DNA of 64,000 bases from Actinomycetota bacterium (GTDB lineage Bacteria; Actinomycetota; Acidimicrobiia; Acidimicrobiales; Ilumatobacteraceae), in NCBI GenBank assembly GCA_016213625.1, contig JACQZZ010000116.1, positions 1 to 64,000 of the forward strand, given 5' to 3'. Each line of letters starts with the position of its first letter. Within the stretch, counting starts at the first letter, position 1. A program made the position numbers and the translations under genes. Below the pieces are notes generated by a model. That model searched no databases. It was not told where the DNA came from and saw only the letters and a program-made list of their open reading frames with translations. This document shows, piece after piece, positions 9,341 through 32,203 of the stretch.

Positions 9341-10291
9341 ATGAGCGGAAGCCTTCTCGGCATCATCATCGGTGGAGCCGTCGTGTTCCTGCTGGTGTTG
9401 CTGAGCCTGAAAACCGTGCAACAGGGCACGGTGGGCGTCACCACCATCTTCGGCAAGTACCACCGCACGCTGCGCCCGGGCCTCAACGTCATCTTCCCGA
9501 TCGTGGAGAAGGTGTACCGGCGCATCAGCGTGCAGAACCGCGCGGTGGAGCTGCAGTTCCAGGCGATCTCGCAGGACCAGGCCAACATCTACTTCACCGC
9601 GATGATGGTCTACAGCGCCATCAACGAGAGCGAAGAGACCATCAAGAACATCGCCTTCAAGTTCGTCAGCGAGAAGGACTTCCTGACGGCGCTCGTCCGC
9701 AGCGTCGAGGGCAGTACTCGTGGCTTCGTCGCCACCAAGCGACAGGCCGAGATCCTCGCCCTGCGCGGCGAGATCGTCGCCGAGGTGAAGGAGAACCTCG
9801 ACCACGTCATCGAGACGTGGGGCTTCCACCTCATCGACCTCCAGCTCAACGACATCACCTTCGACCAGGCCATCACCACCTCGATGGCTCAGGTGGTGGC
9901 CAGCAACAACCTGAAGGCCGCCGCCACCAACGAGGGCGACGCGCTGCTCATCCGCAAGACGAAGGAGGCCGAGGCGCTCGGTACGGCCGTGCGCATCGAG
10001 GCCGAGGCCGAACGCACCGCCGCACAGTTGCGCGGCCAGGGCGTCGCGCTCTTCCGCGAGGAAGTGGCACGCGGCCTCACCCAGGCCGCCCGAGAGATGG
10101 ACGCCAACAGCGTCGACTCGTCGCTCATCCTGTTCTCGATGTGGACCGAGAGCATTCGCCACATGGCCGAGAACGGCAAGGGCAACGTGCTGTTCCTCGA
10201 CGGCTCGCCGCAGGGCATGCAGAAGCAGATGCAGGATCTCATCGCGCTGCAGCAGCTGCAGGTGGTGCAGGGTCAACAACCCACGCAATGA
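9341..10291 (+). CDS. SPFH/band 7 (prohibitin-like) membrane protein
   Basis: This 316-residue membrane-anchored scaffold has an N-terminal transmembrane segment (residues ~5-25) followed by the SPFH domain (VQQGTVGVTTIFGKYHRTLRPGLNVIFP...). Beyond ~190 comes a long Ala/Glu-rich coiled coil (LLIRKTKEAEALGTAVRIEAEAERTAAQLRGQG). A Gln-rich tail closes it. SPFH proteins form ring oligomers that organise membrane microdomains and control membrane proteases. No NfeD partner is adjacent. An AGGAGG ribosome site 5 nt before ATG fixes the start. It appears to be a single-gene unit ahead of the Rieske gene, which has its own -10 box. Confidence 0.87.
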   Translation: MSGSLLGIIIGGAVVFLLVLLSLKTVQQGTVGVTTIFGKYHRTLRPGLNVIFPIVEKVYRRISVQNRAVELQFQAISQDQANIYFTAMMVYSAINESEETIKNIAFKFVSEKDFLTALVRSVEGSTRGFVATKRQAEILALRGEIVAEVKENLDHVIETWGFHLIDLQLNDITFDQAITTSMAQVVASNNLKAAATNEGDALLIRKTKEAEALGTAVRIEAEAERTAAQLRGQGVALFREEVARGLTQAAREMDANSVDSSLILFSMWTESIRHMAENGKGNVLFLDGSPQGMQKQMQDLIALQQLQVVQGQQPTQ

Positions 10292-10325
10292 CCACGCACA
10301 CGCCCACACGAGCAAGGGGTCGCGG

Positions 10326-10331
10326 TAGCAT
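10326..10331 (+). promoter_or_regulatory. -10 box of the Rieske oxygenase gene
   Basis: TAGCAT lies 8 nt before the GTG start, and no Shine-Dalgarno is visible, which fits a leaderless transcript. Confidence 0.5.
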
Positions 10332-10339
10332 CTCGGCCA

Positions 10340-11344
10340 GTGGAACTCGCCCAGACCCTCCCCGCACGCTGGTACAACGATCCAGGCATCTGGCAACGCG
10401 AGCGGTGGCCCATCTTCGGGAGCAACTGGGTGCACGTCGCCTACGACCACCAGTTGCGCAATTCCGGCGACTACGTCACCGAGAACCTCGCCGGCTGGCC
10501 CATCTTCATCCGCCGCAACGACGACGGCTCGCTGCGCGCGTTCTACAACCTCTGCCCGCACCGTGCGGGCCCGCTGGTCTTCGAGGGCGAAGGGTGCACC
10601 AAGAACCTGGTGTGCAAGTACCACGGCTGGGCCTTCAACGCCGACGGCAAGCTGCTCAGTGCGCGCGACTTCGGCGCCGATGCCCCGGCCGACATGGATC
10701 TCACCTCCATCCAGGTGGGTTCCTGGCGGGGCATGGTGTTCGTGTGCCTCAACCCCATGGTGCCGCCCCTGCACGAATGGCTGGGCGAGTTCCCGCTCGA
10801 GGTGAAGGACGTGCCGCTCGAGACCTATCGCTTCCACAGCCGCAGCGTCCGCCACGTGGCCTGCAACTGGAAGACCTACGGCGACAACTTCCTCGAGGGC
10901 TACCACCTGCCCACCACGCACCCCGCGATGAGCCGCGATGCGGACGCCCTGAACTACAAGGTCATCTACAAGGGCGACCCGCGGTGGAACATCCACACCA
11001 TGCCGCCACGCGACTCCAGCACGTTCAGTGTGTTCGGCTACTTCTGGCCCACGTTCGCGTTCGACATCTTCCCCGGCGGCTTCGCCGTCGAACGGTGGCT
11101 GCCGCGTGGTCACAGCTACAGCGACCTCATCTTCGAGTACTTCTTCGCCGACGACGCCGAGGGCGTGGAGGAGATCGTGAAGTTCAGCGAAGAAGTGGCC
11201 GACGAGGACGCGCGCATGTGCGAGCACGTGCAACGCAACCTCGATGCCGGCAACTACGACATCGGTGTGCTCAGCCCCAAGTGGGAGTACCCGCTCAGCG
11301 TGTTCCACGGCATGGTGCGCGACGCCGTCGGCCCCATCGACTGA
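10340..11344 (+). CDS. Rieske non-heme iron oxygenase, alpha subunit type
   Basis: This 334-residue oxygenase belongs to the aromatic-ring-hydroxylating family. The Rieske [2Fe-2S] cluster ligands are in CPHRAGPLVF (C-x-H) and CKYHGWAFN (C-x-x-H), residues ~74-97. The catalytic mononuclear iron site sits in DNFLEGYHLPTTHP (two His, ~185-198), with a downstream carboxylate likely in FADDAEG. The protein is shorter than classical ~450-residue alpha subunits and resembles the choline-monooxygenase/SRPBCC-type branch. No beta subunit, ferredoxin or reductase lies nearby, so electron partners must be elsewhere. The substrate is unknown. The start is GTG. The SCO6745-family gene begins one base after the stop, making a probable two-gene operon. 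Confidence 0.88.
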   Translation: MELAQTLPARWYNDPGIWQRERWPIFGSNWVHVAYDHQLRNSGDYVTENLAGWPIFIRRNDDGSLRAFYNLCPHRAGPLVFEGEGCTKNLVCKYHGWAFNADGKLLSARDFGADAPADMDLTSIQVGSWRGMVFVCLNPMVPPLHEWLGEFPLEVKDVPLETYRFHSRSVRHVACNWKTYGDNFLEGYHLPTTHPAMSRDADALNYKVIYKGDPRWNIHTMPPRDSSTFSVFGYFWPTFAFDIFPGGFAVERWLPRGHSYSDLIFEYFFADDAEGVEEIVKFSEEVADEDARMCEHVQRNLDAGNYDIGVLSPKWEYPLSVFHGMVRDAVGPID

Positions 11345-19281: not shown

Positions 19282-19329
19282 GTCGGGGAGGGGAGATTCG
19301 AACTCCCGACCTCCTGCACCCAAAGCAGG
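19282..19329. repeat. attL: 48-bp tRNA-Pro 3' fragment
   Basis: Identical over 48 bp to 32131-32178. It spans the anticodon stem-loop, T arm and acceptor 3' strand of tRNA-Pro plus one flanking base. Sequence on either side differs, and no 5' tRNA half exists here, so this is an att remnant rather than a gene. Confidence 0.93.
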
Positions 19330-20006: not shown

Positions 20007-20309
20007 CCCGATCTGGTCGAGAGTTCGGAGTAGCTGAGGCGCACGGGTTGGCCAAGCAGCTCCTACGCCTTCATCCACAGGGGGCTGTTGATGTCCGTTG
20101 GAGGGTGTGCATCACGAGATCGCGGCTGGGCAAGCCACTGAACGGGTGGTACCGCATCGCGATTCTCGGGATGTTGTCGATACGTCGTGCTGCGGTTGGC
20201 GGATTTCGACCTCTGTAAGGGGTGTGAGGTTTGTTCCGATCTCCCGTTTCCGGTCGCTCGCGTCCCGTACTCCTGCAGTGATGTGTGACGCGTGCCGTCC
20301 TGGGGAGGC
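20007..20309. other. Gene-free stretch upstream of the mobilization genes
   Basis: No convincing coding sequence. Open frames here have no recognisable protein features. It lies between the TA-like pair and the HTH gene and is a natural place for promoters and the transfer origin, but I could not identify a nic site or a clear oriT inverted repeat. Confidence 0.4.
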
Positions 20310-20672
20310 ATGACTCCGGTGAGTCCGATGATCGAGCCCACCGAGTCCGTGTCGAGCGCCCCGCCCGACTTCCTCACGTTGGATGAGGCAGCGGCGGTGT
20401 TGCGCGTCGGGCGGAGCACGGCGTATCGGGAGGCGAATGCCTTCGAGGCGTCTGGCGGGACGACCGGCATTCCGGTGGTTCGGTATGGCAAGCAGTTTCG
20501 AGTGCCGCGCTGTCGGCTCGAGGAACAGCTCGGTGGCCCGATCACGTGGCCGCTGCCGACACCGCCGGTCTCCCCGAAGTCGACCGCGCAGTTGTCGTTC
20601 CCCTCCAAGCGCGCTGAGCGCGCTGTGGCCAAGCGGTCCACCGCCCAGCTGTCGCTCGCGATCGAGTCCTGA
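20310..20672 (+). CDS. Excisionase-like helix-turn-helix protein
   Basis: This small DNA-binding protein (120 residues from ATG 20310; ATG 20328 and GTG 20292 are alternatives) has a helix_turn_helix_17/MerR-like domain in its first half (FLTLDEAAAVLRVGRSTAYRE...VVRYGKQFRVPRCRLEE). That pattern is standard for Xis/excisionase-family proteins: HTH, then a wing with arginines. The C-terminal half is Pro/Ser/Lys-rich. GGGGAGG precedes the first ATG at very short spacing. It lies 78 nt ahead of the relaxase. It may control excision with the integrase at the other end of the element or regulate transfer genes. Confidence 0.7.
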   Translation: MTPVSPMIEPTESVSSAPPDFLTLDEAAAVLRVGRSTAYREANAFEASGGTTGIPVVRYGKQFRVPRCRLEEQLGGPITWPLPTPPVSPKSTAQLSFPSKRAERAVAKRSTAQLSLAIES

Positions 20673-20750: not shown

Positions 20751-23700
20751 ATGCTGCGCGTGACGACCCTGTACGCGGGCTCGGCGGTCGCGACTGCGAG
20801 CTACTACACGAAGTATCTGACGCAGGCGCCGCGCGAGGAGCCGGGTGTGTGGTCGGGCACCCAGGCGGCAGGTCTCGGTCTGTCGGGTGAGGTGTCGACC
20901 GACGCGCTCGAGCAGCTACTCACTGGTTGCGATCCACTCACCGGGGTGACGCTCGGGCGTCCGCTGGCCGATCGGACGACGGCGAGTGGCACGGTGATTC
21001 GGGCGGTGGCGGGGTTTGATGCGACGGTGTCGGCGCCGAAGTCGTTGTCGGTGTGGTGGGCGCTCACCGGTGACCCCGGCTTGGCCGAGTGTCATGACGT
21101 CGCGGTCAACGCGGTCGTCGACCACCTGGAGCGCTTCGGCTCGACCACCCGGATCCGCTCGAACGGCGGGCGGTTGCATCCCGATAGCCAGGGGCTGATC
21201 GTGGCCGCCTTCCGGCAGACGACATCGAGGTTGGATGACCCGCAGTTGCATACGCATCTGGTGATCTCATCGAAGGTGCAGACCGACGACGGCCGCTGGC
21301 TCGCCCTCGACGCCCGCGTGTTGAAGCAACACCAGCGCGCGTTTGGAGGTCTGTATCAGTCGGCGTTGCGTGCAGAGCTCACTCACCGGTACGGGGTCGC
21401 GTTTGCCGAGATCGTCAATGGTCAGGCGGAGATCGCCGGTGTACCGACCGAGCTGTTGGAGCAGTTCTCCAAACGTGCTGCGCAGGTGCGGGGAGAGTTG
21501 CAGGTGAAGGTGGCCGAGTTCCGCCAGCGTGAGGGCCGGCACCCGACGAAGTTCGAGCACGCCGCATTGGAGCGTGAAGCAGCCGCGGATACTCGTCTGC
21601 GTAAGGCCGCCAATGGTGTCCCGGGCCTGTCGGCACGGTGGCGGGGCGAAGCCGCCGGCATCGGTGTCACTGCCGAGTCGCTCGGCCAGTCGATCGCGCA
21701 TGCTGCACGGGCGGTGGTGCCACCAGGGAGCGTGAGTGTCGCCGAGGTGATCGAGGACCTGTCAGCCGAACGGTCGGCGTGGCATCGCATGGACATTCTC
21801 CGCGCGGTTACCGACCGGCTGCGCCCGCAGCCGGGGATGTCGGGTGAGCGGTGGGCGCGACTGGTTGACCGGGCGGTGGACCGTGTGCTGGGCGAGTGTG
21901 TGGTGCTCGACCCCGAGGGTGACGGAACGAGGCGTGGCTCGGATGGCCGGTCGGTGTGGATCGAACCCGTCGCCGCCCAGGTCACCAGCCGCCAGGTCCT
22001 CGCCCAAGAGGAAGCGATCCTCACATGGGTGCTGGACTCCCAACTCGACGACCCTCAGCCGTCGACGATGGTCACTCGCGGAGCGCTCGACGTGCTCCAG
22101 GCTGACGCGGCAGCGGCCGTGGCGGGTGAGGATCGGGTGGTGGTGATCGTCGGACCGGCCGGCACCGGCAAGACCACCACACTCCACACGGCGGTGAACG
22201 ATCTGCACCGTCACAGCCGGCCGGTCTTCGGGGTCGCGCCGACCGCCAAGGCCGCCAAGGAGTTGGGCTGCGAGACCGGCATGCACACCGACACGGTCGC
22301 CAAGCTGCTCCACGAATGGGCCCGACACGATGGGCCGAGCCCGCGGTGGCGGCTCCTGACGGGAACCACATTGATCGTCGACGAAGCCGGCATGCTCTCC
22401 ACTCCCAATATGCACCAGCTCACCCGGTTGGCGACGAGTGAGCGGTGGCGTCTGGTGTTGGTTGGTGATCACCGCCAACTCCAAGCCGTGGGTCGTGGTG
22501 GCCTGTTCGGCGAGATCTGCGCCACCAGTCGCGTCATCGAGTTGGAGCGGATCCACCGGTTCACCCACGACTGGGAAGCCGCCGCGTCGTTGCGTCTGCG
22601 CCACGGCGACCTCCGCGCCCTCGGCACGTACGAGTCCCATGGGCGGATCATCCCCGGCAGCTTCGACGAGCATCTCGGCGCGATCGCGCAGGAATGGATG
22701 CAACGCCACGCCGCCGGGGAAACGGTGGCGATCACGGCGGCGACGAACGAGCACGTCGACGAGATCAACCGCACCATCCGCCGACTGAGGGCGCGGACGG
22801 GGGACACCGACACCACCGCGATCGCGTGGATCGCAGATGGTCCGGTGGTGGTGGGGGACATCGTCGCGACGCGTCGGAATCATCGGCAGTTGCAGACCAC
22901 CAGCGGTGACATCGTCCGCAACCGCGAACTGTGGACCGTCACCGAGATCAACGACGACGGTGACCTCACCGTCACCGACCTGAGTGGGTCGAGCACAGTG
23001 ACTCTGCCGGCCGAGTACGCGATGGAGCATGTGCGGCTCGGGTACGCGGCCACCGAATACGGCACCCAGTCCGCGACCGAGACCGCGTCGATCACCCTCG
23101 CCGGGCCTGCGACGACCGGTCGCGGCCTGTATGTGGCGATGACCCGCGGCCGCGACGACAACCGTGTCTACGTCGTCACCGACACCCACGACATGAGCGA
23201 CGCACGCGACGTCCTCGAAGGGATCATCGCCTCCGATCGCGCCGACATCCCCGCGGTGGTCCAGCGTCGCCAGCTCGCCCAGCAAGACCGCCAGCCACCA
23301 CGCCCCCAACCGCGCTGCCAGATTCCCGACTGGTTCCACGACCTACGCGCCGACGCCGCCGACAACTACCGCCAGGCACGCCAAGCAATCGACAACTCGA
23401 CTGCGGCCAGAGAGCGACTCGTCGGAATCGTCGATGTGGCGTCGCAATGGATCGCCGATGCCAACGCGATCTGCGCCCCGTTCGATGCCGAACTCGATAC
23501 GGCCCACGACGCCGTGAAACAGGCCCAGGCCGCGCGGCGGGCCGCCCAACAACGACTCGACCAGTCCGGGCTTCGCGGTCGACGCCAAGCACGCACCGAA
23601 CTCGCCGCAGCAAACGAGAGCGTTGCCAGCACCGGCGAGATCCTCGCGGTCGCGCGAGAACAGGCCCGCGAGCCCCACGCGCAACGCAACATCGCCCGCA

Positions 23701-24032
23701 CACAGATCGAGACCGCCCGAGACGCATTGAGGACCCACGACATCCTCGCCAAGTGGCAGTACTTCCCTGACCACCTTGCGGCGGCCGAGACGCGAATCGA
23801 CTCCTTGGACACCTGGCACGACTGGGCCTCAGGAAGATCGGTCGACCAGAACCGTCTCGAGCAGGCCGTCACCACCCTGCACGAGATCGCCGTACACGAA
23901 CCTGACAACGGCACCCGCCAACTCGCCGACGTCATCCACGAATGGGCCGAACAGCACGGCGTCGAGCTCACCCGGCCGTCCGTGCAACAGCACAGAACAA
24001 TCGAAACCGGCCTCGAGATCGACCTCCCTTGA
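20751..24032 (+). CDS. MobF-family conjugative relaxase with helicase domain (TrwC/TraA type)
   Basis: This 1093-residue protein nicks DNA at oriT and unwinds the transferred strand. The relaxase domain (1 to ~300) carries paired catalytic tyrosines Y18-Y19 (ASYYTKYL) and the metal-binding triad ending in LHTHL (His167, His169) after GFDATVSAPKSLSVWW. The helicase domain has Walker A GPAGTGKTTTL (~468-478) and Walker B TLIVDEAGML (~540). Further SF1 motifs are LVGDHRQLQAVGRGG and the late YVAMTRGRDDNRVYV. The C-terminal ~230 residues are Gln/Arg/Ala-rich coiled coil. The ATG is preceded by GGGAGGGAG. No coupling protein or T4SS genes follow, so it depends on a helper. It appears intact. Confidence 0.92.
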   Translation: MLRVTTLYAGSAVATASYYTKYLTQAPREEPGVWSGTQAAGLGLSGEVSTDALEQLLTGCDPLTGVTLGRPLADRTTASGTVIRAVAGFDATVSAPKSLSVWWALTGDPGLAECHDVAVNAVVDHLERFGSTTRIRSNGGRLHPDSQGLIVAAFRQTTSRLDDPQLHTHLVISSKVQTDDGRWLALDARVLKQHQRAFGGLYQSALRAELTHRYGVAFAEIVNGQAEIAGVPTELLEQFSKRAAQVRGELQVKVAEFRQREGRHPTKFEHAALEREAAADTRLRKAANGVPGLSARWRGEAAGIGVTAESLGQSIAHAARAVVPPGSVSVAEVIEDLSAERSAWHRMDILRAVTDRLRPQPGMSGERWARLVDRAVDRVLGECVVLDPEGDGTRRGSDGRSVWIEPVAAQVTSRQVLAQEEAILTWVLDSQLDDPQPSTMVTRGALDVLQADAAAAVAGEDRVVVIVGPAGTGKTTTLHTAVNDLHRHSRPVFGVAPTAKAAKELGCETGMHTDTVAKLLHEWARHDGPSPRWRLLTGTTLIVDEAGMLSTPNMHQLTRLATSERWRLVLVGDHRQLQAVGRGGLFGEICATSRVIELERIHRFTHDWEAAASLRLRHGDLRALGTYESHGRIIPGSFDEHLGAIAQEWMQRHAAGETVAITAATNEHVDEINRTIRRLRARTGDTDTTAIAWIADGPVVVGDIVATRRNHRQLQTTSGDIVRNRELWTVTEINDDGDLTVTDLSGSSTVTLPAEYAMEHVRLGYAATEYGTQSATETASITLAGPATTGRGLYVAMTRGRDDNRVYVVTDTHDMSDARDVLEGIIASDRADIPAVVQRRQLAQQDRQPPRPQPRCQIPDWFHDLRADAADNYRQARQAIDNSTAARERLVGIVDVASQWIADANAICAPFDAELDTAHDAVKQAQAARRAAQQRLDQSGLRGRRQARTELAAANESVASTGEILAVAREQAREPHAQRNIARTQIETARDALRTHDILAKWQYFPDHLAAAETRIDSLDTWHDWASGRSVDQNRLEQAVTTLHEIAVHEPDNGTRQLADVIHEWAEQHGVELTRPSVQQHRTIETGLEIDLP

Positions 24033-24171: not shown

Positions 24172-24789
24172 TCATTGATATCGCAAGTGACTGTGAGGCA
24201 TTCTCGCCAGGATCAATGGCGTGAACGTATCAAGCATTGCGAGCCCCTTGACGGCTAGCACCGTGGCATCCGATGGTCTTACGTCTAGACAACCATTAAG
24301 TGCACTCATGAAGGCGAAATGGCCATCAATGGCACCGCCATCCTCGAGCACATCACCTATTTCCCTCACGCCCGCGAAGTATCCGGAAACGACACCAAAT
24401 CTGCCGATCACGGTGAGATCGGCCCCCGGGGAAGAGTCGTAATCCATGACACGAGCGCCCGCGCTGGAGAATTCCAGCCGGAGCGAGCAGTCACCGAACA
24501 GTTGCGAAACAAGGGCAACACGAACATCGAACACGCAGTCACCGAGCTCGGGTAAACCCGCAGACGGCAGGATCAGCGGTCCAGCGAACCAGTCTTCCCC
24601 GATACCGATCGAGAGGCTCGAATGTCGACTCGGCGCCCTCAGCAGCGCCCCAGGCGTCGACGACCTCGATCCGCGCAGCACAACGGCGGCCGAACGACCC
24701 GGACGCGTTGATTCGGTTCCATCGGACAGATCAACCGCGTGACGAGTGACGTGCCCGCGATCGAGTATCTCCACAGCAGCGAGCGTCAC
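24172..24789 (-). CDS. Uncharacterised protein, possibly SCP2-like
   Basis: This 205-residue protein's GTG start overlaps the stop of the serine-hydrolase gene (GTGA), making it the last of five coupled leftward genes. There are no signal or membrane segments. The middle and C-terminal part (residues ~95-185) reads SLRLEFSSAGARVMDYD, then ADLTVIGRF, SGYFAGVREIGDVLEDGG and IDGHFAFMSALNGCLD. The order 'strands, AD-[LV]-T, helix with G-x-G, G-x2-x-G, helix' resembles SCP2-type lipid-carrier domains. This is my pattern reading only and could be wrong. GC is lower than the chromosome. The 139 bp between it and the relaxase stop (24033-24171) holds nothing recognisable. Confidence 0.55.
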   Translation of the reverse strand: MTLAAVEILDRGHVTRHAVDLSDGTESTRPGRSAAVVLRGSRSSTPGALLRAPSRHSSLSIGIGEDWFAGPLILPSAGLPELGDCVFDVRVALVSQLFGDCSLRLEFSSAGARVMDYDSSPGADLTVIGRFGVVSGYFAGVREIGDVLEDGGAIDGHFAFMSALNGCLDVRPSDATVLAVKGLAMLDTFTPLILARMPHSHLRYQ

Positions 24790-25820
24790 GTCGCACGCAG
24801 TCCGGCGAGTTCGAACACAGCCTGGAGCGCGGCGGCGCGACGTCGCTCCACCTCGGGCTGGCCAGCGAGCTGTGTGTCGACCACTACCATCGAGAGATCA
24901 CGAGCGGGGTCCACCAGGCCAACCGTGGCTGTATATCCTGTCGAGTGCCCAATCGCCTTGCCCCCGAGATAAGAGATATCCGTCATCAGCATCGCCGCGA
25001 ACCCGACTTCCCTTCGCAGGACATAGTCGTACCCGCTATCGGCGGTCGCTAGCCATTCTCGCAGAACGGCCGGACTTGGCCAGGCTGGAACCTCATGGCC
25101 ACGAAGTGTTCGACTGAGCTCCGAGTAGAAGCTGAGCAGTGCCTCCGCTGTCATCAAGCCATCGAAAGCCGGCGACAAGCGCGCCAGCCGACCATCGCGA
25201 GTCTCGCTCACTAGCGGGACGTTGCGACCGTCAGCCATTTTGTACAGTGGGCTCGCCAACTGCCAACCCGCCAGCCGAAGCTCACGGGCGCGCGGAAGAG
25301 AGCACGCGGCCACGTTACTCTCTGGACCCAGGTGAGCGAGCAAACCCTCGGTGACCGATGCTAGATCCACGTCAAGGTCGCGAAACACCCGATCGAGAAT
25401 CCAGCCGGCAACGTACTCACTGTACTCTCGGCGCCCAGACGACTCTGCCAAGGAGAGAGCTCTATCCGAGGCAGACTCGGTAGCGAGAAGAATCAACGTG
25501 GCTGACGGCTGTCCGAGGCCGGCCGTGTGGGAAAGAAGGTTCCGAAGCGTGACGGAGGGATGCCGAAGACTGAGCCACTCGGCGGTGCGCGGCCGGAGAA
25601 ACGGCAGCCGCGGCAGCGGGCAGTCTGCCTGCAAGGAGTAGCGGTCGATGAGGCTCAAGACGGCAATTCCCACCAGAGGTTTGAAGGCGCAGTACAAATG
25701 CAGCAGCTTGTCAGGCATCGTCGCTTCGGCGACAAAACCATCTTGCGTCCCACGAACCACAAATCGCCCGTCGGAGGTCTGTAGTGCAGCGCTGAGCCCA
25801 GCGACGTCCGAAATTGTCAT
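24786..25820 (-). CDS. Serine-hydrolase (class C beta-lactamase fold) protein with Cys at nucleophile position
   Basis: This 344-residue protein has the PF00144 (EstB/class C beta-lactamase) architecture. It shows LLHLYCAFKPLVGIAVLSLID where family members read IASxTKPxTA, then the TLRNLLSHTAGL signature (~91-102), YSEY (~133) at the Tyr-150 position and GHSTGYTATVGLVDP (~291) at the KTG/HxG strand. The SxxK serine is replaced by cysteine (C44-A-F-K47, codon TGC), while the general-base Lys and Tyr are kept. No signal peptide is visible, so it is probably cytosolic, unlike most beta-lactamases. Start ATG overlaps the lipoprotein stop (ATGA) and its own stop overlaps the next gene. It may act as an acyl/peptidyl hydrolase or transferase; antibiotic resistance should not be assumed. 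Confidence 0.8.
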   Translation of the reverse strand: MTISDVAGLSAALQTSDGRFVVRGTQDGFVAEATMPDKLLHLYCAFKPLVGIAVLSLIDRYSLQADCPLPRLPFLRPRTAEWLSLRHPSVTLRNLLSHTAGLGQPSATLILLATESASDRALSLAESSGRREYSEYVAGWILDRVFRDLDVDLASVTEGLLAHLGPESNVAACSLPRARELRLAGWQLASPLYKMADGRNVPLVSETRDGRLARLSPAFDGLMTAEALLSFYSELSRTLRGHEVPAWPSPAVLREWLATADSGYDYVLRREVGFAAMLMTDISYLGGKAIGHSTGYTATVGLVDPARDLSMVVVDTQLAGQPEVERRRAAALQAVFELAGLRAT

Positions 25821-26665
25821 ACCTGGTTAAAGGATGCGGCGGCCAACTTCCGAACCTCATCAACGGTGGAGGGCAGCCCTGTGACCCAGGACGAGGCAAG
25901 AAGGGCGCCGTCCGGAGTCTGCAGCTGTACCCCAAAGCTCTCGTAGGCAGGCATCAAGACAACCAATGGCGACACCGGCCCGCTCTTAGAAAGCTGCGCT
26001 GACGGGAAACTCCGTCGAGAGAGATACAGCAGCGCCTGGTCACCCAGATGGAGGTCTACCTCAGCGGATTGAGAGATCTCAAGGACCAGAGGACCGTTCT
26101 CTGCGAGCGGCGGAGACCATTCGTCAGGTTGCATCGGCGTCAAGCGCTCGGCATAGGCCAGCCCGGCAGTCGTCGATAGCCGGATCGAGCCACCGACCAT
26201 GGCGACCGTGATCGTGCTGCCGGTCTTGGCGCCGACCCGATCCGCGCCGCCTGGGCGCTCCGCCAGCAGCTCCAGGACCTCAAATCTAACGTCAGTCAGT
26301 GGGGTAATGCTGGGAACTTCTAGCCCATTCGCAAGGGCATCGACCGGCTCCAAGCCTCCAGACAACGTGTTCAATCGGCTTGGCTGGATGGACTGAACCC
26401 GCACACGCACGACAATGTCTGTCGCTTCGAGAAGGCTCTTTGCATCGATCGGCTGGAAGTCGACCGATATGGTCGGGGTGCCGACAAAGAGTTCAGAGGC
26501 CGGGGAGGCGGACTCAACTACGATCTTTGGCGTGGGCGCCAAGACCTCCGTTGATTGGAGAGCACTGGACGGCTCGGAGTGCGCCTGAGTTTGTCCGGAA
26601 TCTCCGCCACACGCCGCGACTGTCGCGGCGAGCGTCGCCGTAAGGGCAATCATTATTTTGGACAC
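25817..26665 (-). CDS. Secreted lipoprotein, unknown function
   Basis: About 282 residues from GTG 26665. Signal peptide MSKIMIALTATLAATVAAC-GGD contains a lipobox (VAAC) and a Ser/Gln-rich linker, so the mature protein is tethered to the outer face of the membrane. The body is beta-rich (ISVDFQPIDAKSLLEATDIVVRVRV..., VRFEVLELLAE, TITVAMVGG, LHLGDQALLYLSRRSF). This resembles repeat-like beta proteins whose 'ATDIVVRVRV' and 'GDQALLYL' elements recur in actinobacterial lipoproteins, but I cannot name a domain. GTG 26671 or ATG 26653 are alternative starts, the latter overlapping the protease stop as TAATG. It is coupled on both sides to protease and hydrolase genes, so co-production is nearly certain. 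Confidence 0.72.
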   Translation of the reverse strand: MSKIMIALTATLAATVAACGGDSGQTQAHSEPSSALQSTEVLAPTPKIVVESASPASELFVGTPTISVDFQPIDAKSLLEATDIVVRVRVQSIQPSRLNTLSGGLEPVDALANGLEVPSITPLTDVRFEVLELLAERPGGADRVGAKTGSTITVAMVGGSIRLSTTAGLAYAERLTPMQPDEWSPPLAENGPLVLEISQSAEVDLHLGDQALLYLSRRSFPSAQLSKSGPVSPLVVLMPAYESFGVQLQTPDGALLASSWVTGLPSTVDEVRKLAAASFNQV

Positions 26666-27318
26666 GAGCACCCACCCCACAACCCTAATGCGTGACCGTA
26701 CACCTGGCACCGTCCTTCGATATCTGGAGCGGTTAGGGCAGTGACCCCATTCGAGATATGCCACATGATAGTGGTGTTTAGGGAACTATGGCCGAGACCG
26801 AGTGCGTGTCCAAACTCATGCCCGGCCGCCCACTTCCAATTGCTTGGGCTCCGGAACTGCATTTGCGTCACGGAGATCACATTTCCGTTCACAGCCGTGC
26901 TCGTACAGCCCACTGAACTCGAGGAGCCGCAAATCATTGCCGTGCGAAAGTACACCGGGAAGCCGCTAAGACCATCCGGCGGATACGCGTCCTCAGTGTA
27001 GTTCCATTGATGCCCGTTAGTCTGATCCCAGAGCCCTGATCCGAAGCGCACGTCACTCAGATTCTGTGGAGTGAACCCACCGCCTTCGAAATGCCACACG
27101 AGAGATGCCCCGACCACATATCTGTAGCAGCCTCCGCTCGTTCCTAGTTGTCCCTCGCCGTTGTGACAGGTCCATTGGTATCCAGAGTCGGGCGGCGTAT
27201 GCGCCGAAACCTGACCAGGCACGAAACCGGAGATCGCAGAGCCTGCAGAAGCCACGGCGACGCCTCGGAGCCAAAGTGGCTGGCGCCTTGGCTGCTGACG
27301 AGCTTTGCCTGCGCTCAC
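26653..27318 (-). CDS. Secreted matrixin-like zinc metalloprotease
   Basis: This 221-residue exported metzincin has a signal sequence (RRQPLWLRGVAVASAGSAI... with likely cleavage after VSA at ~39) and a mature domain with HEFGHALGLGH (167-177). That is the HExxHxxGxxH zinc site, with the catalytic Glu at 168. A Met-turn follows (TTIMWH, Met185). This is the layout of peptidase family M10A/M57-type enzymes. Six cysteines in the mature part (for example CHNGEG, GGCYRY, MICG, VGCT, GRCQ, GCSCP) point to an extracellular disulfide-rich protein. The start overlaps the GNAT stop by 4 nt. It might process a partner encoded in the same element or degrade a competitor's surface protein; neither is shown. 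Confidence 0.82.
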   Translation of the reverse strand: MSAGKARQQPRRQPLWLRGVAVASAGSAISGFVPGQVSAHTPPDSGYQWTCHNGEGQLGTSGGCYRYVVGASLVWHFEGGGFTPQNLSDVRFGSGLWDQTNGHQWNYTEDAYPPDGLSGFPVYFRTAMICGSSSSVGCTSTAVNGNVISVTQMQFRSPSNWKWAAGHEFGHALGLGHSSLNTTIMWHISNGVTALTAPDIEGRCQVYGHALGLWGGCSCPK

Positions 27319-27911
27319 GACTCCACCTGGGCCCTAGCGTCATCGGCTACGTAGATCACCTGGAGGTCGTCTGCTGTCGGGGTCTGTCCAGACAGCACTT
27401 GGAGAAGCCACTGCTCGCGATACACCGCAAATATGTGTGTATCCCAGTAGCTGCCCATCGCCAGGAAGTGCGAACGGAGAACTCCCTCCTTTTGGAACGC
27501 GTCGGTCATGCGACCCTCCACTGACGCGACAGTGAAGTCTGGGATCTCCATATAGAGCTTCCGGAACGGGAATGTCTCAAAGAGATACGAGATGAGTAGG
27601 GCGCCAGCCTCTGCTCCGTAGCCACCACCGAGGACCGATTCGTCGACTGCAACAGCGATGTATGCGTACCCGTGCCGTAGGTTGACGCCATATGTGCAAG
27701 CCAAGCCGAGCACCCTTGAAGTACCTCGCTCTATGGCGACGAATGTCTGCGAGTCTTCGGCTTGGAGCGAACGAACGAATTCCTCGGACGCGAGGAGTGC
27801 ACCGTGGAATCGCCACCTCACAACATTTCCAGGTTGATTGAGGATGCGGTGAAGGTCCTCAAGGTGGTGGCCCTCGCACGGGACCAATTGAATCCGGATA
27901 CCCCGAGACAT
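27315..27911 (-). CDS. GNAT-family N-acetyltransferase
   Basis: This 198-residue RimJ/RimL-like acyltransferase opens IRIQLVPCEGHHLEDLHRIL (strand 1, helix 1). It then has FVAIERGTSRVLGLA and the acyl-CoA loop in VLGGGYGAEAGALLISYLFE (~93-111), followed by FRKLYMEIPDF (strand 5). A purine-rich G-tract just before ATG 27911 is a strong ribosome site. It heads the five-gene leftward operon and is coupled to the metalloprotease. It aligns over most of its length with the N-terminal domain of the divergently encoded GNAT-carrier protein (RxxG...EEF; FRKLYMEIPDF versus SVAKVYFEIPAF), so the two are paralogs. The acceptor substrate is unknown. Confidence 0.78.
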   Translation of the reverse strand: MSRGIRIQLVPCEGHHLEDLHRILNQPGNVVRWRFHGALLASEEFVRSLQAEDSQTFVAIERGTSRVLGLACTYGVNLRHGYAYIAVAVDESVLGGGYGAEAGALLISYLFETFPFRKLYMEIPDFTVASVEGRMTDAFQKEGVLRSHFLAMGSYWDTHIFAVYREQWLLQVLSGQTPTADDLQVIYVADDARAQVES

Positions 27912-28375
27912 TCCCCCCCACCTCTCGTTGACTCATAGTCGATCGCCAGCAGGGCCCGGCAGACCAACTTGACGGCGCGATCGATCCATTGGCAGCATGA
28001 CAGCCGAGGCAACATGTGTCAATGCGACTCTCGACGTGACGAGCTCGGCTAGGATCAATCTCCTGGCAAGTCTGTTGCCGGGAGCCAGGCGCGCAACATT
28101 CGGCGGTTGTTGTCGAGCATGCCGACCGACCAAACCTCCGAAGGAACCTGCCAACACGCTGCAGTTCATGAGCCAGTAGCGCTGCAGGTGGGTCACGAAC
28201 GGTGCGACTGGCTGCAACCCTTACGACAGTCAGCCGCAACAGCGATAGCTCCATTCCGCCGAAGCACTTGGACGTTCACCCGCGCCCGCCGGGGCAAGAT
28301 CATGATCGAGCCCCAGCGACGATCCGGGTGGTACAGCTAGTCGCGAAGGGAGCGTCTCCTGTCGCGGACTTCGTG

Positions 28376-28394
28376 GCGTATCAAGGATGTATCA
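28376..28394 (-). promoter_or_regulatory. Third copy of the TGATACAT pair
   Basis: On the minus strand TGATACAT (28394-28387) is followed 11 nt later by TGATACGC (28383-28376), 6 of 8 matching. Period and sequence match the arm-like sites at both element ends, but this copy is internal and inverted. Confidence 0.4.
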
Positions 28395-28860
28395 AACCGT
28401 CTGCTACATCGCCGTGTTGAGTCGTGTCATCTCGTCCGTCGACGGCGAGATAAGTGCAGCTCGGCGGCATGATTCGATACGAGACGAAACCGGGCGGACA
28501 CGCTGGACTTCTTCTACGGAGCAAGGATAGGCCCGGTCGGAGACCGGGTCAGTGGAGCATGATGCTCGAGATCGTGAACCACACACGGAGAAAGGGAGCA
28601 CCTCTTGGTCCGCCGGCGCCAAATGCCGAGGAATCCGACCACGGAAAGTGTCATCGGTAGAAGTCGGTGAAGGCATCCTTCTTGGCCCTTGGCCTAGCCC
28701 CTCCATCGTGAGTCTCGAAGCGCCGACCGTCATACGCAGGGTGAGACATGGCAGATCGAGAGGCCGGTTTGGTTGCACACGGTTTGTATGGCGCAGCGTC
28801 CGCTGGGCACGCCGAGGACTCCGCCGGGGGCAGTCTGTCGACGTTGGGTCAGCGCACCTT

Positions 28861-28898
28861 TGAACCAATAGAGATCGACTGAACCAATAGACATCGAC
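28861..28898 (+). repeat. 19-bp tandem duplication before the GNAT-carrier gene
   Basis: TGAACCAATAGAGATCGAC is followed directly by the same 19-mer with one change (G to C at position 13), ending at the base before GTG 28899. It replaces the place of a normal Shine-Dalgarno, so it may be a regulatory or protein-binding element or a recent slippage product. Confidence 0.6.
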
Positions 28899-29726
28899 GT
28901 GGATCAGGATTATCGTGCAGGAGTGACAGGAGTGGCAGGAGGTCTGTTAGTCGGGCTTGACACCGTCCAGGAGGCGGACATGCCCCGGCTGTACGAGGCA
29001 GCTCTCTCTCCGTGGAACTGGACGAAGAGCCGCTGGCGTGGCACGACCCCGTCTCCTGACGAGTTTCGTCAAAGTCTGTGGCGCGGAGTTCATGCGCAGT
29101 ATGCGGTTCGATCGAGTAGGAATCGCAGACTCGTGGGCTTGGTTTCCTCGTACAACTTTAATCCGCCTGCGTCGGTGCACGCTGCTTTCATGCCTGCAGT
29201 CCCGGAGATGGAAGGTCCGCCCGTTGTCGAAGCGCTTCTGCAGTTCGTTGAGCTGACATTCCGAGCAACCTCGGTGGCCAAGGTCTACTTTGAGATCCCT
29301 GCCTTCGTGGGGCTCGATCACAGTCCTTTTGGCGAGTACATCAGTCTCGAAGCTGTCCTGCGGAACTATGTGTATTGGGACGGAGAGCTATGGGATCTGT
29401 CGCACTGGTCGCTGTCCAGGACGGCGTTCGATACATACCTCAACTCTCTCCGCGTTGCGACACAGCCTGGTCAGGACTTTCTGAGTCTTGAGGCCTTCCG
29501 CGCGCGTTTGATGGCCGTTTGCTGCTTGGGTGATGACACCCTTCAGCTATCGAACTGTGATTCTCTGGCGCTGCTTGAAACAGCGCTACTGCTCGAAGCA
29601 CTCTGTGGACTGGACGCCGAGACGACGGTTCTGGAGAGTCGGACCTTGATTCTCAAGGTCGAGGATCTCTATCGAACGGCAATTGGTCGAAGCGCAAGCA
29701 AGCTCGTGCAAGGAGCAGAGAGATGA
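28899..29726 (+). CDS. GNAT-like domain fused to an acyl-carrier-like domain
   Basis: 275 residues from GTG 28899 (GTG 28923 and 28932 are possible). Residues ~18-180 follow the GNAT paralog encoded divergently: VGLDTVQEADMPRLYEAA, RWRG...DEFRQSL, RRLVGLVSSYNFNP, SVAKVYFEIPAF. The acyl-CoA loop is poorly kept (PEMEGPPVVEALL), so activity may be altered. Residues ~195-262 read like an acyl or peptidyl carrier protein: F-x3-L, GDDTLQL, then CDSLALLETALLLEALCGL and LILKVEDLYRTAIG. Ser222 in DSL sits where phosphopantetheine is attached. No stand-alone phosphopantetheinyl transferase, KS or adenylation gene is near. It heads the rightward operon; its stop overlaps the lipoprotein start (ATGA). 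Acyl loading and transfer is inferred. Confidence 0.68.
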   Translation: MDQDYRAGVTGVAGGLLVGLDTVQEADMPRLYEAALSPWNWTKSRWRGTTPSPDEFRQSLWRGVHAQYAVRSSRNRRLVGLVSSYNFNPPASVHAAFMPAVPEMEGPPVVEALLQFVELTFRATSVAKVYFEIPAFVGLDHSPFGEYISLEAVLRNYVYWDGELWDLSHWSLSRTAFDTYLNSLRVATQPGQDFLSLEAFRARLMAVCCLGDDTLQLSNCDSLALLETALLLEALCGLDAETTVLESRTLILKVEDLYRTAIGRSASKLVQGAER

Positions 29727-30334
29727 AATGTCGTCGAAGCGCGGCGAGCTTGGTGCTTTGCGCCACAGTCTTGCCCCTCGTAGGTTGTGGAACCTCTGAT
29801 ATGTCATCGCCCAGCGGTGAACCCTCCAGTTCTGAAATGTCCGTTGGTGACGTCTCCTCGACTGGTCCTGCGGTGCAGTCTTCCGTTGAGTCGGTAGTTC
29901 CCGAAAGCTCCTCAGCAACGGCAACCCGGACACTTGAGCTCGAGGGAGGCCGAGTTCTTGAGCTCCCGATGATCGCAGGCTTCGATGTAGAGGCGGCCCG
30001 ACTCACAACCAATGTCGCAGGCATCCAGGGCAGCCATGCGGTCTACCGTAACACGACGACCGGACAAAGCTTTGTGGTTGGTGAGTTGCGAGGTGAGCTC
30101 GTAGCAGCACAGTTGGCGAACCCGGCGGAGCATGGATATCAGCTTTTGAAGGGCAGCGATATCATGGGTGCACAGATCTATGTTAAGACTTACGGTGACC
30201 CAACAACCCAGGACTGGGCAAGCGTCGAGATAGCGTGGCCGATTAGTGACGATGAGGCGCTTCTGGTGAATGGGCAACACATGACCGTTGATGAATTGGT
30301 ATCGATCGGCCGGCAGCTGACGGTGAGGAAGTAA
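29723..30334 (+). CDS. Secreted lipoprotein, unknown function
   Basis: This 203-residue protein has a clear lipoprotein signal: MKCRRSAASLVLCATVLPLVGC-GTS, lipobox LVGC. A Ser/Pro/Glu-rich linker (~24-68) and a compact C-terminal domain follow, with TLELEGGRVLELPMIAGFDVEAARLT, AVYRNTTTGQSFVVGEL and DEALLVNGQHMTVDELVSIGRQL. No family recognised. ATG overlaps the stop of the GNAT-carrier gene, and the secreted gene starts one base after its stop (TAAcATG). Like the leftward lipoprotein it would sit on the outer membrane face, but the two show no obvious sequence relation. Confidence 0.72.
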   Translation: MKCRRSAASLVLCATVLPLVGCGTSDMSSPSGEPSSSEMSVGDVSSTGPAVQSSVESVVPESSSATATRTLELEGGRVLELPMIAGFDVEAARLTTNVAGIQGSHAVYRNTTTGQSFVVGELRGELVAAQLANPAEHGYQLLKGSDIMGAQIYVKTYGDPTTQDWASVEIAWPISDDEALLVNGQHMTVDELVSIGRQLTVRK

Positions 30335-30335
30335 C

Positions 30336-30893
30336 ATGACGCACTTACGAAGGATCGGCGCGTCGGCGCTCTTAGCATCAACCTCTGTCATTGCGGCGAC
30401 AAACGACGCAGCTGACGCCAGTGTGGCGGGGGGCAGCTGGGCCGCCACTGCATCCACGCTGTCACTCGGCTCCCTGTCAAACCAAGTTGGGTTCTGGCAG
30501 ACGCTTCTCTGCTCGAACAACCTGCTGCCGGTCGATGGCAGTTTTGGCTCGCTGACGAAGTCGAGAACAATTGCGTTTCAGAGCCAAATGCTTCATTACA
30601 CGGGGGGATGGCTAGATGGGGTCGTTGGTTGGCACACGTGGAGCGATACTCAGGCCGCGCGCGACCCGGATGCTCCGACGTACCCTGCACTCCAGTCGCT
30701 GACGGGCGGTTTCTACAGCTACATGGCCGGTGGGAATCCCGTGAAGCTCTACTGGGATGGCGGCTCCACTTCGCTGTGGAAGTTCGAGTTCAATCCCGGA
30801 GCTGGATCGGGAAACTTCGAAAACTCCAGTTCTCAGTGGATTCAAGCCACGAACTCACGGACCATAACAACTGGCAACTGCGTGTTCGCCTAG
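30336..30893 (+). CDS. Secreted peptidoglycan-binding-like protein
   Basis: This 185-residue exported protein has an N-terminal signal (LRRIGASALLASTSVIAATNDAADA, cleavage near ADA-SVA). Residues ~45-110 resemble the PG_binding_1 fold: LSNQVGFWQTLLCSNNLLPVDGSFGSLTKSRTIAFQ, then LDGVVGWHTWSDTQ. These are the three-helix pattern with 'VDGxFGxxT' and 'DGxVGxxTW'. The C-terminal ~70 residues are aromatic and Gly/Ser-rich (GGFYSYMAGGNPVKLYWDGG, LWKFEFNPG) and could be a small beta domain. Paired cysteines suggest extracytoplasmic folding. It is the last gene of the rightward cargo operon, convergent with the integrase (13 bp between stops). Confidence 0.7.
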   Translation: MTHLRRIGASALLASTSVIAATNDAADASVAGGSWAATASTLSLGSLSNQVGFWQTLLCSNNLLPVDGSFGSLTKSRTIAFQSQMLHYTGGWLDGVVGWHTWSDTQAARDPDAPTYPALQSLTGGFYSYMAGGNPVKLYWDGGSTSLWKFEFNPGAGSGNFENSSSQWIQATNSRTITTGNCVFA

Positions 30894-30906: not shown

Positions 30907-32031
30907 TCAGTTCCGCTCCAGGCGCGCGACCACGGCGCTTTGACTACGCGGCAGCGCGTGCGAATACGTGTTGAGCAGCATCTCGGGGCTGTGGCCGAGG
31001 ATGTCGGCGATTGCTCGGAGTTCGCCGACGTCTCCAGCGTTGCTCACCATGTGGGTGGCCGCAGTGTGGCGGAGTCCGTGGGAGGTGAGCCGGGGGAGTC
31101 CGGTGTTCTTGACGATGCGTTCCAACGCCCGGTCGTAGGAGCGGGGGAGCACGATGCCGCCTTGGCGCGTCGTCACGATCAGGTTGCCGCCCTCCCATGC
31201 CGGACCAGCAGCAAGTCGTTCCGCGGCCTGGTCGGCGCGGCGTCGGGCAAGACATCGCAGGGTGGCGTCGTCGAGGGGGATGATCCTCCGCGAGCGTTCG
31301 TTCTTGGCGTCGCCCCATGCGGCGCCGCCGCTGACAGCCACGAGGCTCTCGTCGATGCGCAGTGTCTGCTTGTCGAGGTCGACGTCGTCCCATCGAAGGG
31401 CGAGCACCTCGCTACGGCGCAGACCGTAGAGCACGCCGAGCCGGAAGGCGATGGCCCACCGATGCGTGGAGGTGGCCTCGAGGAACAGATCGACCTCGTC
31501 CTCGGACCAGGCGACGGCGTCCTTGACGTTCACCGGCTTGGCGACTGTTCGAGGGAGCCCCACGCGAGCCGCGGGGCTGCGTGCGATGAGCCCCTCGTCG
31601 ACCGCCTCGGACAACGCTGCACGCAACACGTTGCGACAGATCTGCACGCTCCGCCTCGACAGCCTGCCGCCGGCAGCGAGCTTCTCGACCCACTCGGCAA
31701 CATCATCGCGATCCAAGCGCGAGAGTGGGATGGCGCCGAGGCCGGCCTCGATGTGGGGGATGGCCCAGGCGTACTGCTCGCGGGCCTTCTCGGTGATGTC
31801 GGTGCGGCCGGCGACGTATCGGCGCACCAGCCACCCCACGGTGCCGCGCTCCGTCGTGGCGTCGTTGGCCCGGACCCCGCGAGCCGCCGCCAACGCGGAC
31901 CGCTGCGACGCGAACGTGCCGAGCTGTCGCGGACGGTGCTTGCCGGTGGTGGTGTCGATGCCGTCGACGCGCACGACCCACTTGTCGCGCTGCTGGCGCA
32001 CCGTCGGCTGGCCGGTTGCCTTCCACGACAT
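30907..32031 (-). CDS. int: Tyrosine-family site-specific integrase
   Basis: This 374-residue phage-type recombinase has an N-terminal arm-binding AP2-like region (VRQQRDKWVVRVDGIDTTTGKHRPRQLGTF) and a SAM-like core-binding domain (~62-160). The catalytic domain carries Arg in YGLRRSEVL (~205), Lys in AKNERSRR (~243), HGLRHT (His318, Arg321), GHS (His347) and the nucleophile Tyr356 in NTYSH. All catalytic residues are present, so it should be functional. A GGAGGTGAC ribosome site precedes the ATG. It lies between the cargo and attR, and reads away from the tRNA, the standard arrangement for tRNA-targeting elements. It presumably uses the 48-bp tRNA-Pro repeat as core and the TGATACAT pairs as arm sites. 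Confidence 0.94.
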   Translation of the reverse strand: MSWKATGQPTVRQQRDKWVVRVDGIDTTTGKHRPRQLGTFASQRSALAAARGVRANDATTERGTVGWLVRRYVAGRTDITEKAREQYAWAIPHIEAGLGAIPLSRLDRDDVAEWVEKLAAGGRLSRRSVQICRNVLRAALSEAVDEGLIARSPAARVGLPRTVAKPVNVKDAVAWSEDEVDLFLEATSTHRWAIAFRLGVLYGLRRSEVLALRWDDVDLDKQTLRIDESLVAVSGGAAWGDAKNERSRRIIPLDDATLRCLARRRADQAAERLAAGPAWEGGNLIVTTRQGGIVLPRSYDRALERIVKNTGLPRLTSHGLRHTAATHMVSNAGDVGELRAIADILGHSPEMLLNTYSHALPRSQSAVVARLERN

Positions 32032-32130: not shown

Positions 32131-32178
32131 GTCGGGGAGGGGAGATTCGAACTCCCGACCTCCTGCACCCAAAGCAGG
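32131..32178. repeat. attR: 48-bp repeat within tRNA-Pro
   Basis: Perfect copy of 19282-19329. It restores the 3' half of the tRNA after insertion, so the host keeps a working gene. Confidence 0.93.
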
Positions 32179-32203
32179 AACGCTACCACTGCGCCACTCC
32201 CCG
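32132..32203 (-). tRNA. tRNA-Pro(TGG)
   Basis: 72 nt folding as a full cloverleaf: acceptor CGGGGAG/CTCCCCG with discriminator A, D stem GCGC/GCGT with AGTGGTA loop, and anticodon arm CCTGC-TTTGGGT-GCAGG giving anticodon TGG. The variable loop is AGGTC, and the T arm is GGGAG-TTCGAAT-CTCCC. CCA is not encoded. It reads Pro CCA codons. The island enters at its anticodon stem-loop to 3' end. Confidence 0.95.

Follow-up and report, generated by a model that had tools for sequence, protein, structure and literature searches.

To our knowledge, only Gram-negative systems are known to acylate exported proteins in the cytosol in an acyl-carrier-dependent way. The closest described cases are CdiC, which lipidates class IV CdiA in an acyl-carrier-dependent manner (PMC8510554), and IacP/SipB, in which acylation of an exported protein depends on an acyl carrier protein (PMC5279801). 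A precedent of another kind comes from Listeria, where the secreted metzincin of the Mtz-Tim pair cleaves its partner, a TIMP-like lipoprotein; other Firmicutes encode comparable pairs near mobile-element genes (PMC8235301). Here, we analyzed a 64,000-nt stretch (the window) of contig JACQZZ010000116.1 from an actinobacterial genome (Acidimicrobiales; Ilumatobacteraceae), in which a mobile element of about 12.85 kb carries eight genes, lettered A to H by position, in two divergent operons (Table 1). One operon holds the GNAT E, the metzincin D and the lipoprotein C, followed by B and A; the other holds the GNAT F, the lipoprotein G and the exported protein H. We show that a smaller module, consisting of a carrier-associated GNAT and exported proteins, recurs, and that the eight genes do not form one system.

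The locus resembles each of these systems in part. With CdiC/CdiA and the RTX toxin-activating acyltransferases, in which a cytosolic acyltransferase uses acyl-acyl carrier protein (acyl-ACP) on a co-encoded exported effector, it shares the pairing of an acyltransferase gene with an exported protein (E with D, F with H), although those systems are Gram-negative and involve giant proteins and other secretion routes (PMC8510554). Neither E nor F matched the HlyC/TAAT family in the Pfam scan (E up to 10). IacP-SipB offers a dedicated acyl carrier protein that serves in acylating an exported protein, but the acylated residue there is a cysteine of a type III translocon, and no GNAT is named in the portion of the report we drew on (PMC5279801). 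The order metzincin, then lipoprotein, tied to mobile elements, is common to Mtz-Tim and D-C; the hosts differ, however, no GNAT or carrier is described in the part of the report consulted, and the two are likened by description rather than by sequence (PMC8235301). In the window, D matches PF00413 and C has a lipobox, giving a secreted metzincin with an adjacent lipoprotein.

Work by Craig from 2011 is said to link N-acyl amino acid synthases to PEP-CTERM/exosortase, which would likewise tie an acyltransferase to an exported-protein system; the exported neighbours in our dataset, in contrast, showed no such C-terminal tail by eye, with no exosortase profile search made. MbtK of the mycobactin pathway is itself a GNAT. 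MbtM-MbtL(-MbtK) resembles the present loci in combining a ligase with an acyl carrier in mycobactin acylation (PMC11633376), but its substrate is a small molecule and it has no exported protein partners. Overall, the parts and the logic of the modules have precedents, while the combination in actinobacteria did not appear in our literature search (titles and abstract openings), nor did any description of a metzincin-lipoprotein pair united with a carrier-GNAT core.

The first-pass annotation had placed eight tightly spaced genes in two divergent operons on a mobile element, and the open reading frames (ORFs), strands, attachment repeats, integrase and relaxase all bear this out. It had further treated the eight genes as one system, which we reject: no relatives of A, B, C, G and H turned up at the 76 other loci compared (phmmer, E up to 5), and B-A forms a pair of its own elsewhere. 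The conserved core of the modules is the GNAT family that includes E and F (24% identity, E = 8e-7). E-D-C and F-G-H accordingly stand as two modules within the window. Our preferred reading, held tentatively and at somewhat less than an even chance, is that the cargo represents two modules of one widespread kind together with a hitch-hiking B-A pair, and that GNAT and carrier acylate the co-encoded exported protein before export.

In the order, F matched 33 of 248 genomes at E = 1e-3, and a profile of 36 family members (A1, with E and F among its rows) matched 43 of 397 order genomes at 1e-26, the window's own genome being included in both counts. Among 396 genomes of the phylum, 117 matched A1 at 1e-10; eight scored above 130 bits and the others at or below 94 bits, and the latter were taken as other GNATs. 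The edge of the family is less sharp in the order sample, where matches, some of them fragments, reach down to 95 bits at the cut-off. Named relatives come from metagenome-assembled genomes (labelled Actinomycetes or Acidimicrobiales bacterium), Frankia and Parafrankia. An initial search of genome contigs with F alone returned no relative, relatives of F were absent from phage records and limited to three Streptomyces entries (E = 4e-4) in plasmid records, and viral contigs searched with a second alignment (A2) yielded no confirmed relative. We compared 77 loci, i.e., the window and 76 others, after leaving out 12 of 24 loci of named relatives as copies of other sampled loci; six further family matches lie outside this set (two in genome G157 and one each in G042, G154, G166 and G167). 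Gene calls were ORF-based and, because many contigs are short, neighbours at contig edges will have been missed.

Exported proteins are in excess next to these GNATs. Among operon neighbours, 55/120 were predicted to be exported, as opposed to 7/57 for 40 control GNATs (p = 5e-6), and the difference persisted with one locus per 60% cluster (49/102, p = 3e-6). The initial count was 61/120, from which AMP ligases and three sigma factors were reset to not exported; the control value was kept uncorrected. By locus, 40/76 have at least one exported operon neighbour compared with 6/40 controls. A comparison within the same loci, again uncorrected, gave 61/121 for GNAT neighbours and 77/462 for other genes. 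The controls were hand-picked from the weaker phylum matches and are not clade-matched, because only three come from the window's order and the rest from elsewhere in the phylum.

Carriers also recur at these loci. A carrier hidden Markov model (HMM), seeded with 20 domains picked by eye at these same loci, detected a carrier at 35/76 loci (at least 35 bits), 22 fused to the GNAT and 13 within 1.5 kb, corresponding to 27/64 clusters at 60% identity, and it gave no match at the 40 control loci. The position of the carrier varies (C-terminal, N-terminal or encoded by a gene of its own), and its layout changes 22 times on a quick tree. Five of six carriers tested match Pfam PP-binding (L040, L048, L052, L121 and L144), F being the exception. 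The first-pass annotation read F as a GNAT fused to a carrier domain. The GNAT part stands, on the basis of its homologues and of its similarity to E; the carrier part is weak on its own, yet it occupies the place of the Pfam PP-binding domain in the homologue L040. The domain scores 50 bits with F in the carrier model and 16.7 bits with F left out, the latter corresponding to a weak E = 0.002 among 6590 ORFs, and it has no Pfam match but carries CDSLALLE at the expected Ser position.

At 11/76 loci (L040, L052, L060, L113, L116-L121 and L131; seven from Frankia), a fatty acyl-AMP ligase (FAAL)-like gene shares the strand of the GNAT and is no more than 300 nt away from it, compared with 0/40 controls (p = 0.007). 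These represent 7/65 clusters at 60% identity, and a 128-aa ligase fragment near the L128 GNAT was left out of the count. The ligase HMM also matches five control loci (51-147 bits), where the nearest same-strand match is separated from the GNAT by 4.8 kb. For four of five ligases, PRK07768 (long-chain-fatty-acid--CoA ligase) was the first NCBIfam model, followed by MbtM or fatty acyl-AMP ligase models, all below cut-off and with MbtM among the top three; the L052 ligase matched general acyl-CoA ligases. When two ligases were compared with the PDB, the fatty acyl-adenylate ligase 3pbk ranked first for one and fourth for the other. The window's genome contains one FAAL-like gene, 43% identical to a Frankia one. 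The earlier idea of cytosolic acyl handling coupled to exported proteins survives in part: for the GNAT and the carrier it is backed by the enrichment of exported neighbours, carriers and FAAL-like ligases over controls, and the hydrolase B lies outside the recurring core.

The exported partners themselves vary from locus to locus. Metzincin partners occur in the window and at L036, L039, L052, L113 (1.7 kb from the GNAT) and L129 (a fragment at a contig end), and at L147 a metzincin motif lies on the opposite strand 4.4 kb from the GNAT. GNAT, metzincin and lipoprotein occur together at L036, L039, L052 and, at the contig end, L129. Other partners are Peptidase A4 proteins (L062 and L068 by Pfam, L065 by similarity), EEP-nuclease-like proteins (L138 reaches the Pfam cut-off; L139 and L055 fall short of it but are alike) and proteins with chymotrypsin-like motifs (L035, PF00089 E = 0.02, below cut-off; L150, by eye), and many have no family assignment. 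The GNATs of L033, L059 and L062 lie next to very large proteins of about 700-1200 aa that look exported and contain repeated modules. At L134 (4065-6250), a tandem pair of lipoproteins sharing 93% identity across 267 residues precedes the family GNAT, and L052 has a second metzincin-like and lipoprotein pair (9592-10840) about 8 kb downstream of its GNAT.

On the quick tree, the labels of the four partner classes are clustered (4 changes against a mean of 7.3 in shuffles, none of 200 as low), mainly owing to the EEP class, in which a single genome contributes two of the three rows. Since the labels are clustered, partners stay with their GNATs at short range, and this speaks against free partner swapping. 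A single origin of the metzincin-linked GNATs found no support, as their six rows required 6 changes against all others; among labelled rows metzincin required 3 changes, as low in 48/500 shuffles. E and F, both on long branches, are not sisters in this tree, where 30/73 inner branches are open (poorly supported); the two modules therefore probably came together from different places in the family. Use of a special signal peptide or of the Tat route by the partners found no support either (Tat-like 13/48 vs 11/58, p = 0.36).

We propose the following scheme. A FAAL-like ligase, next door at some loci and perhaps chromosomal for the window's element, would load a carboxylic acid, probably fatty, onto a phosphopantetheine-type carrier, which is fused to F and which E would use in trans. 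Still in the cytosol, the GNAT would act as an N-acyltransferase and pass the acyl group to an amine on the co-encoded partner, D or H, which would then be exported. The acyl group may hold the secreted protein at the membrane or aid its entry into a target envelope, and the lipoprotein (C or G) may restrain the exported protein or be its cell-surface partner. Most of the other recurrent members are exported proteins that vary between copies even within one genome, which makes the co-encoded exported protein the simplest target. The 2.9-Mb genome G033 illustrates this, with five family GNATs (L035, L058, L059, L062 and L066) next to five different exported neighbours, an arrangement easier to reconcile with one enzyme per substrate than with a single metabolite. 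If true, such acylation would exist in actinobacteria as a swappable module, a family GNAT would predict which secreted proteins are modified, and many uncharacterized exported proteases and lipoproteins of uncultured actinobacteria would gain a testable context. It would also give a reason why small mobile elements carry exported proteases and lipoproteins. A broader version, which we regard as unlikely in its full form, would see a dedicated actinobacterial protein-lipidation machinery (ligase, carrier and GNAT) as a conserved core paired with changing exported enzymes and lipoproteins. Spreading on small mobilizable elements, it would be the polymorphic equivalent, in Gram-positive bacteria, of acyl-activated secreted effectors.

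Several observations weigh against acylation of the exported partners. With our home-made signal predictor, which flags B and E, probably wrongly as both should be cytosolic, 36/76 loci have no exported operon neighbour, and 41/76 have no clear carrier close by. The carrier domain of F is divergent and the element encodes no FAAL, while the Ser is lacking in five N-terminal carrier-like domains (L036, L042, L043, L061 and L063). A metzincin within 6 kb of the GNAT was found at 6/76 loci and 0/40 controls, which is not significant alone (p = 0.07). We found no modified residue or shared recognition motif in the partners, whose signal peptides are near background, with Gly/Ala/Ser content at p = 0.006 (uncorrected) and other measures not significant. 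Finally, the PDB entries nearest to the GNAT profile are spermidine and diamine N-acetyltransferases, so that a small amine is a possible substrate. As a separate observation, the five Ser-less domains may be docking domains.

The main rival is therefore a small-molecule product: the carrier-GNAT, with FAAL, would make an N-acylated compound (an acyl amino acid, acyl polyamine, aminolipid or siderophore-like molecule), and the exported proteins would be a separate secreted arsenal or act on the molecule outside the cell. Besides the spermidine/diamine acetyltransferases, this is favoured by the MbtM-type models among the best for the ligases, as the acyl carrier MbtL works with MbtM on mycobactin (PMC11633376), and by a SnoaL-like gene within the GNAT cluster at seven loci (L037, L038, L047 and L116-L119). 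On the other hand, no recurring biosynthetic gene was seen beyond carrier, ligase and SnoaL-like genes, although no systematic search was made, and a single metabolite sits poorly with partners that vary by locus and with the five differently accompanied copies in G033. We consider this explanation possible but rather unlikely.

Lipoproteins bear on a further explanation, antagonism, in which the secreted enzyme would attack neighbours or element-free kin, the lipoprotein would serve as surface immunity or inhibitor, and the GNAT would mature the toxin or modify the producer's own envelope protectively. Envelope modification that protects the producer is known from Fem-like immunity to lysostaphin. 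Such a role would fit exported hydrolases that vary around a conserved core and in several cases come with a lipoprotein, as well as the carriage on mobile elements. The metzincin and TIMP-like lipoprotein pairs of Listeria, likewise tied to mobile elements, affect cell walls, including those of neighbours (PMC8235301). C does not align with the other lipoproteins, another feature consistent with antagonism. A single lipoprotein family was accordingly rejected (C vs 12 others, best hhalign E 0.012 over 10 columns); the lipoproteins of L138 and L139 are related. Lipoproteins, however, made up 15/120 neighbours compared with 2/57 in controls (p = 0.046) and occurred with another exported operon neighbour at 7/76 loci, which counts against this explanation. 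The hydrolases could moreover be nutritional, and none of the eight cargo proteins matched a PADLOC anti-phage family (E 0.01). Altogether, antagonism appears quite unlikely.

Whether the element simply gathered unrelated genes depends on which genes are considered. The missing relatives of A, B, C, G and H at the other loci and the independence of B-A would fit such a chance assembly, but GNAT, metzincin and lipoprotein recur together at four loci, exported neighbours and carriers exceed those of control GNATs, and two further elements with attachment repeats carry such modules. A chance cargo thus seems very improbable for E-D-C and F, and stands for B-A. The first-pass annotation had suggested looking for co-occurrence of GNAT, matrixin and Cys-hydrolase; a metzincin motif does lie within 6 kb at six of the 76 loci, whereas relatives of B are found at none. 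B was correctly read as a serine-hydrolase-fold protein with a Cys nucleophile, having C-A-F-K where the S-x-x-K nucleophilic Ser of class C beta-lactamases and serine hydrolases is expected, while the SCP2-like assignment of A found no Pfam match. B-A is a separate pair outside the recurring core: in two order genomes, a B homologue with C-x-x-K (CLFK and CLVK) lies beside a relative of A, and no E/F-family GNAT occurs within the 18-kb stretches around these pairs. These homologues keep C-x-x-K, so the beta-lactamase fold has a Cys-nucleophile branch that is not confined to the window. The pairs, at L161 (7093-9683) and L162 (8053-9880), consist of a PF00144-like C-x-x-K protein and a 254-259-aa protein.

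The two further elements resemble that of the window. The element at L039, about 9.5 kb long between 36-bp repeats in tRNA-Lys, encodes an integrase and a MobF relaxase along with a metzincin, a lipoprotein and a GNAT-carrier protein. The one at L144 spans about 10.9 kb between 40-bp repeats in tRNA-Arg; besides its integrase and MobF relaxase it encodes a GNAT, a carrier, an AMP ligase, two exported proteins and a few small genes. MobF genes or fragments also lie near the GNAT in L129, L068 and L148; overall, MobF matches occur at 5/76 loci compared with 0/40 controls (p = 0.12, not significant alone). In L129, a gene that looks by eye like the HTH_17-type gene adjoins the MobF gene.

Having both a tyrosine integrase and direct repeats at a tRNA end, the window's element is probably an integrative mobilizable element (IME). 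Between its repeats lie a 97-aa gene without Pfam match, the HTH_17-type gene, the relaxase, the cargo and the integrase, so that A-H make up nearly all of the cargo. No mating-pair genes were seen among these genes, with no type IV secretion system profile search made.

Table 1. Features of the mobile element and its cargo (coordinates in the window).
Feature	Coordinates	Strand	Basis
Left attachment repeat (tRNA-Pro end copy)	19282..19329	.	48-bp exact match to 32131-32178
HTH_17-type protein, possibly excisionase/regulator	20292..20672	+	PF12728 E = 4.5e-5, below curated cut-off
MobF/TrwC relaxase-helicase	20751..24032	+	NF041492 213.8 bits; PF08751 1.6e-70
A: protein of no assigned family, partner of B	24172..24789	-	no Pfam match; E = 3.6e-5 to gene beside B homologue in L162
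B: beta-lactamase-fold protein, Cys replacing nucleophilic Ser (CAFK)	24786..25820	-	PF00144 2.8e-16
C: lipoprotein (longest ORF; true start perhaps 26665)	25817..26764	-	lipobox VAAC after hydrophobic stretch
D: exported matrixin-type metzincin (HEFGHALGLGH)	26653..27318	-	PF00413 2.1e-7; motif; signal-like N-terminus (home-made predictor)
E: GNAT of carrier-associated family	27315..27911	-	PF13302 1.1e-7; A1 profile 217 bits (E is a row of A1)
Divergent region separating operons, 987 bp	27912..28898	.	19-nt tandem repeat 28861-28898; palindrome 28287-28318
F: GNAT with C-terminal carrier-like domain (~residues 194-264, CDSLALLE)	28899..29726	+	A1 profile 182 bits (F is a row of A1)
G: lipoprotein	29723..30334	+	lipobox LVGC
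H: exported protein, perhaps peptidoglycan-binding	30336..30893	+	signal-like N-terminus; weak NCBIfam hydrolase matches; 38%-identity homologue in G024
Tyrosine integrase	30907..32031	-	PF00589 4.5e-20
Right attachment repeat, within tRNA-Pro(tgg)	32131..32178	.	tRNA-Pro is 32131-32203, minus strand; repeat is its 3' part

The earlier calls of D as a matrixin-like protease, E as a GNAT, and C and G as lipoproteins agree with the matches and lipoboxes in Table 1. H had been called peptidoglycan-binding-like; it is predicted to be exported, and a binding function is suggested by the look of its relatives and by two NCBIfam hydrolase models that it matches weakly and below cut-off (E 0.003 and 0.007). 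The Pfam scan up to E 10 returned nothing for A, C, F, G and H, and only PF13302 and PF00583 for E; no cargo protein matched NCBIfam above model cut-offs or PHROGs at E 0.001. In the order samples, with the own genome included, relatives were found in 3/198 genomes for B, 5/198 for H, 2/198 for D, 2/173 for G and 6/178 for C, the other five for C being weak, with E values of about 4e-4 or higher. G-H is paralleled on a 3.9-kb G024 contig, where a probable lipoprotein (lipobox by eye) is followed by the H homologue and no GNAT of the E/F family was seen.

From the ORF coordinates, the A/B, B/C, D/E and F/G junctions are 4-nt overlaps and G/H a 1-nt gap, while the D/C overlap varies with the start of C (112 nt for the longest ORF, 13 nt for GTG at 26665 and 1 nt for ATG at 26653). 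A tRNA-Leu predicted by ARAGORN at 22000-22085 lies inside the relaxase gene, is absent from the Rfam output and is probably false. GC content of the cargo is 0.58-0.62, compared with 0.64-0.71 elsewhere in the window. The tandem repeat directly 5' of F and the palindrome in the divergent region may be operator sites.

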